This document shows positions 32,669 through 34,735 of a DNA stretch of 64,000 nt, piece by piece; the stretch's first letter is position 1, and every line of letters starts with the position of its first letter. The DNA lies in the NCBI RefSeq assembly GCF_007004725.1, contig NZ_ML660171.1:124001-188000 (forward strand), in the 5' to 3' direction. Below the pieces are notes generated by a model that saw only the letters and a list, made by a program, of their open reading frames with translations, did not search any database and was not told the DNA's origin. The stretch is from Aliikangiella coralliicola (GTDB lineage Bacteria; Pseudomonadota; Gammaproteobacteria; Enterobacterales; Kangiellaceae). Both the position numbers and the translations under genes were made by a program.

Positions 32669-33178
32669 TGTAAAGGCCCGAGGTTGGAAGTCATAATGAT
32701 GATATTAAAATTATAGCTGTAAAAAGACTTTTTTGCGCTCCAAAATATATAAATTCTTTAAAAATCAGTTGGTTGGTCGTTTTTTTGAGTACGCTATTTT
32801 TGCGATGAAAAGCTCATAAAAGCCTTGATATTAAGAATTTTTGGTGAAAACTTGATATTTTTGTGATTGTGTCTACCTTGATTGATGGTGCTTAAGACAA
32901 GGATTTTTCAGTATATTTACTGAGTTTAGCCTTCTAGATAGCAAATCTTTTGCTAGCTGCGTTGTAACGAGTGACATTTGTGACGAATTGCACGTTTTTC
33001 TGTTGCAAAATTCCCTAGTCTGATGCATCTTAAGTTATGGGTATTTCCGACATACTCATAATTTAATAATAATATTCTAATAATTGTAGTGGCGGTTCTC
33101 GTCTAATTATTTACATAACAATGAATTACCTGGACGGTGGGAGATATATTCAATATCGGCAGGTGTAACATTTAGAGA
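32669..33178. other. AT-rich intergenic region between divergent fliK-like and Cys-rich genes
   Basis: No gene seen. It is strongly AT-rich with runs of T and must hold promoters for both divergent genes. No specific operator was recognised. Confidence 0.3.
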
Positions 33179-33217
33179 AAGCCCGACTCTTTGAGATACC
33201 CAAATGAAATCGGGTTT
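33179..33217 (+). promoter_or_regulatory. Leader hairpin before the EGKCG-repeat gene
   Basis: AAGCCCGA at 33179-33186 can pair with TCGGGTTT at 33210-33217 (one G-T pair) around a 23-base loop, followed by TGTTTATTT. This looks like a terminator or attenuator in the leader, 32 bases before the start codon. Function is inferred. Confidence 0.35.
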
Positions 33218-33249
33218 GTTTATTTAATAATATTAGGAGCAAAACTCTC

Positions 33250-33633
33250 ATGAAAAAACTATCTAAAATTGCGGCACTAGTCGGTTCAATTTTGTTAGCG
33301 ACGATGTATTTCGGCACAGCGTCAGCTGAAGCTAATCCTTTTGCAAAAGCTGATCAGGTTCAAACTGTAGCCGGAGACGGAAAAGACGCCAAATGCGGTG
33401 AAGGCAAATGCGGCGGAGACAAGAAAAAGAAAGGTGAAGGCAAGTGCGGCGAAGGCAAGTGCGGCGGCGACAAAGCTAAGAAGAAAGGCGAAGGCAAGTG
33501 CGGCGAAGGTAAATGCGGCGGCGACAAAAAGAAAAAGAAAGGCAAAGAAAAATGTGGTGAAGGTAAATGCGGAGACAAAAAGAAAAAGAAAGGCGAAGGT
33601 AAATGCGGCGAAGGTAAATGCGGCGGTAAATAA
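33250..33633 (+). CDS. Exported EGKCG-repeat protein, HvfA-like copper-binding RiPP precursor candidate (127 aa)
   Basis: A 26-residue signal peptide ending A-S-A is followed by five near-identical units of 13-18 residues, each with two K-C-G motifs and, in units 1-4, a poly-Lys linker. There are 10 Cys in total; 8 of them sit in exact E-G-K-C-G pentapeptides and 2 in variants (D-A-K-C-G, K-E-K-C-G). E-G-K-C-G is the motif that in Haemophilus HvfA is turned into oxazolone/thioamide copper ligands by the MNIO enzyme HvfB with HvfC. No such partner lies in this window, so this is an orphan precursor or a plain metal-binding protein. AGGAGC lies before the start. Confidence 0.85.
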   Translation: MKKLSKIAALVGSILLATMYFGTASAEANPFAKADQVQTVAGDGKDAKCGEGKCGGDKKKKGEGKCGEGKCGGDKAKKKGEGKCGEGKCGGDKKKKKGKEKCGEGKCGDKKKKKGEGKCGEGKCGGK

Positions 33634-33662
33634 TTAATTACCCACCAAATTTATTGAGTGCT

Positions 33663-33699
33663 AAATCCATAGTTTGAGTTTCAAGCTATGGATTTTTTT
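33663..33699 (+). terminator. Strong intrinsic terminator after the EGKCG-repeat gene
   Basis: A 15-pair stem (33663-33677 with 33681-33695, one G-T pair) with a 3-base loop, followed by a T-run. It isolates the gene as a single transcript. Confidence 0.9.
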
Positions 33700-33994
33700 A
33701 TGTCACCTATCTCTCGATATTTGCTTTTCTGAATTTAGGAAAAGGTTCTTTAGTTCATGATAAGTTCTCAATTTTAGTGCAAAATATAATGCGCAAATTT
33801 TAATCAATTCGATAATCTTTTTTACTGTAATATTTAATTGAAGTTGATCATAAAAATATCACCTTTATTGACTAGTTGAAGTGTCAATTTTCAAATACAA
33901 TGCAAAGTTTCGTGTTCGATGAAACTGTCGGGGCGTTTTTGTGTCGAATATGAAAATTAATGCAGTTGCTAAAAATCTCAGGACTACAAACACA

Positions 33995-34735
33995 ATGAAC
34001 AAAAGAATTACTACGATTGGACGAATAGCAGTACTAGTTACTTTTGCTGCGTTAGGCGGATGCGCCACTACCACAGAACCTAATAAGGATGACCCTTGGG
34101 AGGGATGGAACCGAGGAGTTTATAAATTTAATAAGGCACTTGATACTGCAATAGCAAAACCAGTTACCAAGGGTTATAAAGCGATAACACCCGATGTTGT
34201 AGAAAAAGGTGTTTCAAATATTTTCTCAAACCTGGCTGACGTGCCAACAATGATTAATAATTTGCTTCAGGGTAAGGTTACAGACTCTGCTTCTGACCTG
34301 GGTCGCTTCGTCTTAAATACGACGGTTGGGCTCGCTGGCATATGGGATCCGGCGTCAAAATTAGGGTTGGAAAAACATGATGAAGATTTCGGGCAGACCC
34401 TTGGCGCATGGGGAGTGGGCAGCGGGCCTTATGTAATGTTACCTTTAGTCGGGCCTTCAACATTAAGAGATACTGCCGCATTGATTGTCGACGCTCAAAT
34501 GGACTTAATCAACGAGATTGATCACAAGCGGACTCGCTATGAGGTTAAAGTACTGCAGATGATTGATGGTCGCGCCAGGTTAATGGCGTTAGAAGATCAA
34601 TTGGAAGATGCAACCGATGAGTACGCGTTCATTCGGGATGTCTATTTACAAAATCGACGCTACAAAGTGTTGGATGGAGACATACCATTCGAAGAAGAGT
34701 GCGAAGAGGAAGATGAGGAAGATTGCGAATTTTAA
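33995..34735 (+). CDS. mlaA: MlaA (VacJ) outer-membrane lipoprotein (246 aa)
   Basis: MlaA removes mislocalised phospholipids from the outer leaflet of the outer membrane and passes them to MlaC. The lipobox L-G-G-C puts the lipid on Cys23. The D-P-W-E-G-W-N-R segment just after it, F-V-L-N-T-T-V-G-L-A-G-I-W-D-P-A and G-P-Y-V-M-L-P-L-V-G-P-S-T-L-R-D are the family core. ATG 33995 gives a compact lipoprotein signal; an ATG at 33950 is in frame. The C-terminus is unusual: about 14 residues, nearly all Glu/Asp, with two Cys. Confidence 0.92.
   Translation: MNKRITTIGRIAVLVTFAALGGCATTTEPNKDDPWEGWNRGVYKFNKALDTAIAKPVTKGYKAITPDVVEKGVSNIFSNLADVPTMINNLLQGKVTDSASDLGRFVLNTTVGLAGIWDPASKLGLEKHDEDFGQTLGAWGVGSGPYVMLPLVGPSTLRDTAALIVDAQMDLINEIDHKRTRYEVKVLQMIDGRARLMALEDQLEDATDEYAFIRDVYLQNRRYKVLDGDIPFEEECEEEDEEDCEF

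Follow-up and report, generated by a model that had tools for sequence, protein, structure and literature searches.

The EGKCG-repeat gene of Aliikangiella coralliicola described here probably encodes a former HvfA/oxazolin-type RiPP precursor whose enzymes were lost in place, so that the protein would now buffer metals in the periplasm through its unmodified thiols. The finding that tells most is that the enzymes disappeared in place in two families whereas their substrate was retained; this loss is well supported by comparison of the loci. Homology, positional orthology, the absence of the enzyme pair and the retention of the precursor under a changed constraint were all computed.

Both 5-thiooxazoles and Cu binding have been shown for modified EGKCG peptides (PMC13097082; PMC13419390). 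The modification of HvfA, given as oxazolone/thioamide in the initial annotation of this DNA, is out of date in that form and has been reassigned as 5-thiooxazole, still at -4 Da per Cys (PMC13419390; PMC13097082). HvfBC acts poorly on HvfA lacking its signal sequence (PMC13419390), and FonBC accepted substrates with single Ala substitutions ahead of the core (PMC13097082). A protective copper role even of modified EGKCG peptides is disputed (PMC12538549): Microbulbifer MmrA-C were undetected whether or not copper was added, and co-expression gave E. coli only a slight benefit. Lipidated oxazolins have been described together with their enzymes (PMC12636315). PMC12452194 defines Buf_EGKCG, counts a precursor without MNIO in 67 of 2583 genomes (Table 3) and mentions EGKCG units that consist of one stand-alone gene, with the remark that such peptides either require no modification or are dead.

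An EGKCG-repeat protein encoded before mlaA is related to HvfA

The window, the whole 64-kb stretch of DNA that was analysed, lies on contig C12 of the A. coralliicola genome (G000; 7.04 Mb in 22 contigs, 99.88% complete). The features of the gene and its surroundings are as follows; type II denotes the subgroup defined below.

33164..33172, + strand: TGTAACATT element at the start of a 5' leader that is conserved; may serve as promoter element or as regulator site (TGTAACA in relatives)
33179..33226, + strand: hairpin with a T-rich run behind it, immediately upstream of the ribosome-binding site; may be an attenuator (MFE fold)
33250..33633, + strand: type II EGKCG-repeat protein, 127 aa, probably exported (ORF, NCBIfam match, motif counts)
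33250..33327, + strand: putative signal peptide, residues 1-26 (hydrophobic segment and AxA-type site ASA/EANPF, by eye)
33328..33384, + strand: leader segment past the signal peptide, retaining NPF but lacking a GY motif (leader comparison, families f1 and f7)
33385..33630, + strand: five double KCG units with Lys-rich linkers between them, 10 Cys (motif counts)
33634..33979, + strand: gap between precursor and mlaA, where sister genera hold the MNIO and HvfC (DUF2063) genes; no remnant (synteny, remnant search)
33663..33695, + strand: terminator-like hairpin past the gene (15 pairs, only 4 of them G-C)
33980..34735, + strand: mlaA, right-hand synteny marker, context only and outside the system (PF04333; synteny)

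The open reading frame starts with ATG behind an AGGAG-type ribosome-binding site recognized by eye. All 10 Cys of the product stand within KCG and eight of these within exact EGKCG, the contexts of the remaining two being DAKCG and KEKCG. Their layout is five KCG-x2-KCG pairs. A recount confirms the five units, 10 Cys and eight exact EGKCG reported initially. In 10,000 shuffled versions of the protein, no more than one EGKCG arose, versus the eight observed. Since the eight EGKCG units of the gene use four different DNA spellings, the repeat is kept at the protein level.

Homology of the window protein to HvfA/oxazolin precursors is supported at the sequence level. NCBIfam model NF050137, which is named for HvfA, matches it at 91.4 bits (cut-off 19.5). 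The HvfA equivalog NF050188 scores 78.2 bits, under its cut-off of 95, but four MNIO-linked relatives likewise fall under that cut-off (48.4 to 75.7 bits) and it therefore does not separate the types. A Pfam search of the protein returned no family at E<=1, and no DUF2282 (the Buf1 domain). Searching the whole genome with NF050137 at E<=1 gave four matches, all within the window gene, and no further match elsewhere. An AlphaFold2 model built from eight sequences is disordered (pLDDT 40), shows no beta-helix and places an N-terminal helix at residues 4-20 with low confidence; because of its disorder, the model lends no support to a metal site.

The MNIO genes of the genome belong to bufferin clusters

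No MNIO (PF05114) or DUF2063 match was found on contig C12, and two DoxX-like tblastn queries detected no DoxX gene in the window (E<=1e-6 and E<=1e-5), which bears out the earlier observation that MNIO, HvfC (DUF2063) and DoxX genes are missing from it. The rest of the genome contains two MNIO genes (contigs C7 and C5) and three DUF2063 genes (contigs C7, C5 and C9). Before the C7 MNIO gene stands one whose product has two 6-Cys units and 13 Cys overall. The C5 MNIO gene is preceded by a DUF2282 bufferin precursor, and DUF2063, sigma-like and anti-sigma-like genes follow (the latter two by eye). The label Buf1 derives from Pfam for the C5 gene only, and all other Buf1 and Buf2 labels derive from sequence pattern. 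On contig C9, which has no MNIO match, a lone DUF2063 gene is divergent from a gene for an ECF sigma factor and a likely anti-sigma gene (L012:4572-6676, by eye) and is perhaps the leftover of a third bufferin cluster.

In an MNIO tree of 102 entries, 99 of them distinct (three repeat another entry), all 61 EGKCG-neighbouring entries (60 distinct) fall in one clade with a support of 0.948. This clade also holds three entries that the labels had missed, all from EGKCG loci (L035, L055 and L169, the last from family f6 and showing no precursor ORF by the pattern used). Of the two MNIOs of the window genome, one is placed in the Buf2 clade (31 entries, 0.965) and the other in the Buf1 clade (7 entries, 0.764); an MNIO of the EGKCG-linked clade was not found in this genome. 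A distant HvfB-type enzyme serving the window gene, proposed at first as one of three alternatives, was rejected as the main reading on these grounds: both MNIOs have bufferin-type precursors of their own and lie in bufferin clades, and close relatives that carry the gene show no MNIO. A distant-locus HvfA system is unlikely. The suggested genome-wide check for DUF692 (MNIO) and DUF2063 genes does find both, two and three respectively, yet none of the EGKCG-linked kind, and taking the absence of any MNIO as the decisive test would have misled, because MNIOs are present but of another kind.

A related explanation is modification in trans, whereby a bufferin-type MNIO-DUF2063 pair elsewhere in the genome would make 5-thiooxazoles on the window protein. 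The genome offers two MNIO and three DUF2063 genes as candidates, FonBC is permissive (PMC13097082) and modification from a different locus is named as a possibility for such precursors (PMC12452194, in the part cited). We nevertheless consider it quite unlikely, as both MNIOs sit with their own bufferin-type precursors in bufferin clades, the ortholog is retained in 10 genomes that yielded no MNIO, and 6/6 MNIOs of five further type II genomes also adjoin bufferin-type precursors (a count that leaves out G006, which has an MNIO fragment only, with neighbours not resolved).

EGKCG genes without MNIO are found in two families

To describe the distribution of the gene, seven genomes of the genus Aliikangiella were searched for EGKCG repeats. 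Four passed: G000, G001 (with two copies), G002 and G005, of which G001 is very likely Aliikangiella marina. An MNIO search gave no match in G001, G002 or G005. A fifth genome of the genus, G006, carries the gene with fewer EGKCG units, was found by synteny and has a short MNIO fragment match. G003 is unreadable at the locus, its contig starting 275 bases before the mlaA match, and G004 has no EGKCG, MNIO or mlaA match.

A sample of 394 genomes of the order contains 107 with EGKCG and 218 with MNIO; 98 have both, 9 have EGKCG alone, 120 have MNIO alone and 167 have neither, counts whose Fisher test ignores shared ancestry, as do the rank tests of leader and core below. MNIO lies within about 1.5 kb in 30/30 best-scoring EGKCG loci. 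The nine EGKCG genomes without MNIO are G001, G002, G005 and G343 in family f1, to which the window genome belongs, and G078, G153, G166, G200 and G359 in family f7. A 14-sequence MNIO profile at E<=10 found nothing in these nine, nor in G377 and G004 (G006 being outside this sensitive search), and DUF2063 at E<=0.01 was absent from the nine (G377 and G006 being outside that search). An assembly gap hiding MNIO was rejected as an explanation: six of the nine genomes are listed as 100% complete and the others as 99%, 94% and 92%. G377, the tenth MNIO-less genome, is 93% complete.

We classified 55 EGKCG genomes of f1 and f7, 40 with MNIO beside the precursor (type I) and 15 without. The two genomes found by synteny, G006 and G377, bring the latter subgroup, type II, to 17 genomes and 18 loci in the two families, A. 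marina having two. Adjacent MNIO is present in 0/18 type II loci, and no MNIO at all was found in 10/17 type II genomes. The others contain MNIO or a piece of it (G000, G012, G326, G385, G140, G240 and, as a fragment, G006); the first six of these genomes have eight complete MNIO genes in all, every one beside a bufferin-type precursor.

Type II proteins differ in leader and core but keep every KCG

GY after NPF or a like motif is present in 39/39 readable MNIO-linked leaders versus 0/18 type II leaders of f1 and f7. L055, whose contig starts inside the repeat and lacks the leader, was left out of the 40 MNIO-linked loci; L153 and L154 were counted as MNIO-linked, their contigs breaking in the repeat with MNIO and more repeats on another contig. 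The cores differ as well. The EGKCG share of Cys is 396/418 in MNIO-linked proteins versus 102/196 in type II, the KCG share 411/418 versus 196/196, and the median net charge per 100 aa 4.7 versus 12.0 with overlapping ranges. The poly-Lys linkers pointed out in the initial annotation are present but not odd, since they fit a subgroup with this higher median charge (12.0 versus 4.7). With an NPF leader lacking GY, no adjacent MNIO and KCG at 10/10 Cys, the window protein falls within type II as defined, and its EGKCG share of 8/10 lies at the high end of the subgroup, among the least drifted. The genes of G377 (L185:2440-2808) and G006 (L184:2456-2767) have 0 and 2 exact EGKCG, respectively; they were missed by the NF050137 searches, occupy the syntenic place and still have every Cys in KCG. 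The second type II gene of A. marina (L046:8202-8573 in G001) lies in an unrelated place and is without the conserved 5' element.

Among named genomes, GY is found in 9/9 loci with MNIO nearby (L030, L031, L032, L035-L040) and is absent from L029 and L034, which have no MNIO match in about 20 kb (in this set L028 is A. marina and L033 ends in the repeat). L029:9986-12874, from a Planctomycetia MAG, and L034:9941-12701, from a Sulfurimonas MAG, contain KCG repeats with a PF13618 and GMC pair downstream, and L034 also a DoxX gene; the two may represent a different partner system. Family f8, presumably Pasteurellaceae judging from its HvfA-like sequence, is an exception, as 6/6 loci examined (of 10 EGKCG genomes) lack NPF-GY and yet have an adjacent MNIO. 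GY is consequently a marker within lineages and not a universal rule. Loss of GY alone need not prevent modification, because FonBC tolerates single Ala changes (PMC13097082) and f8 is MNIO-linked without it.

Locus comparison points to loss of the enzyme pair in place

In family f1, type I loci have the order ccm - precursor - MNIO - HvfC - mlaA in 8/8 inspected of 24 (G221, G317, G307, G154, G113, G013, G277 and G179), followed by PilZ and response regulator genes in five loci (genera g3 and g4). At L138, L139, L199-L203 and L206, the loci of the eight MNIO-linked members inspected, the oxazolin cluster stands directly between the ccm genes and mlaA. Type II loci show precursor - mlaA in 9/9 mlaA-linked cases. 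Four of them (G001, G343, G385 and G326) read ccm - precursor - mlaA - PilZ - response regulator, and the short loci of G006 and G377 read ccmI - precursor - mlaA - PilZ - response regulator. In the window, G002 and G005, FliK-like and FlhB-like genes replace ccm while the right side is unchanged.

Family f7 shows the same kind of difference at another place. Its type I order is precursor - MNIO - HvfC - apt - dnaX - ybaB in 6/6 inspected loci of 16, with a response-regulator match in between in G351. The type II precursor lies before apt-dnaX without the enzyme pair in 5/8 loci (G359, G166, G200, G078 and G240), in some of which a response regulator or DUF1456 gene intervenes. The remaining three (G140, G012 and G153) have Dus on the left, as some others do, and no apt in the stretch seen. 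The 900 bases after 13 type II genes contain no MNIO or HvfC remnant at E<=1 (one query each).

Neighbour-gene trees (FastTree, unrooted) split type II from type I in both families with a support of 1.000, and type II genomes group together (9/9 in f1, 4/4 used in f7). The f1 trees comprise 14 genomes without genus g2 or 12 with it, and the f7 tree 10 genomes including 4 of the 8 type II. Precursors of the GY type that are linked to an MNIO are likewise present in named genomes of beta- and gammaproteobacteria, which makes loss once per family the simplest reading; a gain of enzyme pair and leader motif in both families would be less simple. The MNIO-HvfC pair was thus apparently lost separately in each family. 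Of the initially listed alternatives, an unmodified Cys metal sponge or a new variant fits best.

The precursor itself could instead be a dying relic, a functionless leftover. Its enzyme pair is gone, and loss of expression or function has been offered for such genes (PMC12452194, in the part cited). The frames, however, are open in 17 genomes of two clades, the units vary synonymously from one to the next without loss of Cys, KCG is kept at 196/196, the 5' element recurs in 9/9 mlaA-linked genes and A. marina has two copies, and we regard a relic as highly improbable. In terms of use, the open frames, the synonymous variety between units, the lack of any Cys outside KCG, the two A. marina copies and the conserved 5' element in 9/9 mlaA-linked f1 genes all speak for a gene in use.

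The complete conservation of KCG (196/196) is stricter than a bare thiol sponge needs and could indicate an enzyme or structure that reads K-C-G. One version of this is that an unrelated K-C-G-recognizing enzyme replaced MNIO after the loss and that the two lineages separately kept the substrate for it. KCG is invariant in type II while the upstream E and G drift, and KCG-repeat loci with no MNIO nearby and a Gluconate_2-dh3 and GMC oxidoreductase pair downstream exist in one Planctomycetia and one Sulfurimonas genome. On the other hand, comparison of type II neighbours revealed no linked gene common to f1 and f7 beyond response-regulator domains, which are present in MNIO-linked relatives too. 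A linked replacement enzyme was rejected on this comparison, and replacement by an unrelated enzyme is unlikely overall.

A conserved element precedes the gene in family f1

The sequence TGTAACA is found between -78 and -97 relative to the start codon in 9/9 mlaA-linked type II genes of f1, followed by ACC...GGT arms, a T-rich run and then the ribosome-binding site. Neither the second A. marina copy nor any f7 type II gene (0/8) has it. The 64-kb window contains three copies on the + strand and one on the - strand. By eye, the ACC...GGT arms have a matching place in relatives, and RNAalifold gave no consensus structure for the 5' leader. The 5' hairpin is for this reason, and because the element is missing from the second copy and from f7, only a lead. 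Positions 33164-33226 and the same place in eight relatives may constitute a regulator site and attenuator. The downstream terminator described as strong corresponds to a terminator-like hairpin, but that strength reflects its length (4 G-C of 15 pairs), and the region has three terminator-like hits versus 1.3 expected. One sub-threshold Rfam match overlaps the gene at its 3' end together with the terminator-like hairpin.

Proposed function and relation to known systems

The sequence of events that we favor would begin with deletion of the MNIO gene and its DUF2063 partner from the locus in an ancestor of the window genus and its sister genus, the precursor staying in place and intact. The type II precursor would then have lost its GY leader motif, its E-G positions drifting and basic linkers being gained while every Lys-Cys-Gly was kept. 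The disappearance of the enzymes while the protein was kept suggests that it works without modification. It would most likely be exported by Sec and act unmodified, a disordered chain of paired thiols (Cys-x4-Cys) binding soft metal ions in the periplasm, the metal being probably Cu(I). We infer that the enzymes were lost rather than gained, that the protein is exported unmodified and that it binds a metal, as well as which metal this is.

The same Cys-x4-Cys pairs might cycle between dithiol and disulfide, making the protein a periplasmic thiol-disulfide buffer and not a metal buffer. Probable export, paired Cys and an oxidizing compartment are compatible with this, and the ancestral spot adjoins the ccm cytochrome c maturation genes. 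That adjacency, however, is common to MNIO-linked genes and absent in the window genome, and no redox partner is linked; a redox role is very unlikely.

Unmodified thiolates bind soft metals in metallothioneins and copper storage proteins. The mechanism proposed here is the same, and no sequence relation was found (Pfam, E<=1); unlike these proteins, the window protein is probably exported and is predicted to be disordered.

The window protein resembles HvfA/oxazolin and Buf_EGKCG proteins (NF050137, NF050188; PMC12452194, PMC13419390, PMC13097082) in its signal-peptide-like N-terminus, its Lys-rich linkers and its EGKCG pairs in repeats of about 17 residues, and its gene occupies the same chromosomal spot as the MNIO-linked genes of sister genera. 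It differs in having no adjacent MNIO/DUF2063, no MNIO of the corresponding clade elsewhere in the genome, a leader without GY and a score under the NF050188 cut-off. The bufferins Buf1 (DUF2282) and Buf2, both present in the window genome, are likewise signal-peptide-bearing, Cys-rich copper RiPP precursors, but they have another Cys pattern and each its own MNIO-DUF2063 pair. The stand-alone Buf_EGKCG genes of PMC12452194 share with 10/17 type II genomes a precursor in an MNIO-less genome. Beyond the counts in the cited part of that paper, we describe a defined subgroup, a conserved locus, in-place loss in two families and a changed leader and core. In the literature on EGKCG, HvfA, oxazolins and bufferins, with subscription journals barely covered, we found neither a separate leader type nor in-place loss described.

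Significance

RiPP precursors are usually taken as useless without their enzymes. Two bacterial families seem to have dropped an enzyme pair in place and kept its substrate, with parallel changes in that substrate. The GY leader motif is suggested as a marker of MNIO-coupled members in many families, though not all. The NCBIfam name 'oxazolone/thioamide-modified RiPP metallophore' also matches proteins of genomes in which no MNIO was found, and its 'modified RiPP' falls on the six type II proteins tried. Should the reading with an unrelated enzyme be true, the same peptide scaffold would be served by a second, non-MNIO modification. The open remark of PMC12452194, in the part cited, that such peptides need no modification or are dead becomes accessible to a direct test in a culturable marine bacterium. 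Type II genomes represent a natural knock-out for asking whether the EGKCG chain itself, rather than its thiooxazoles, carries the function.
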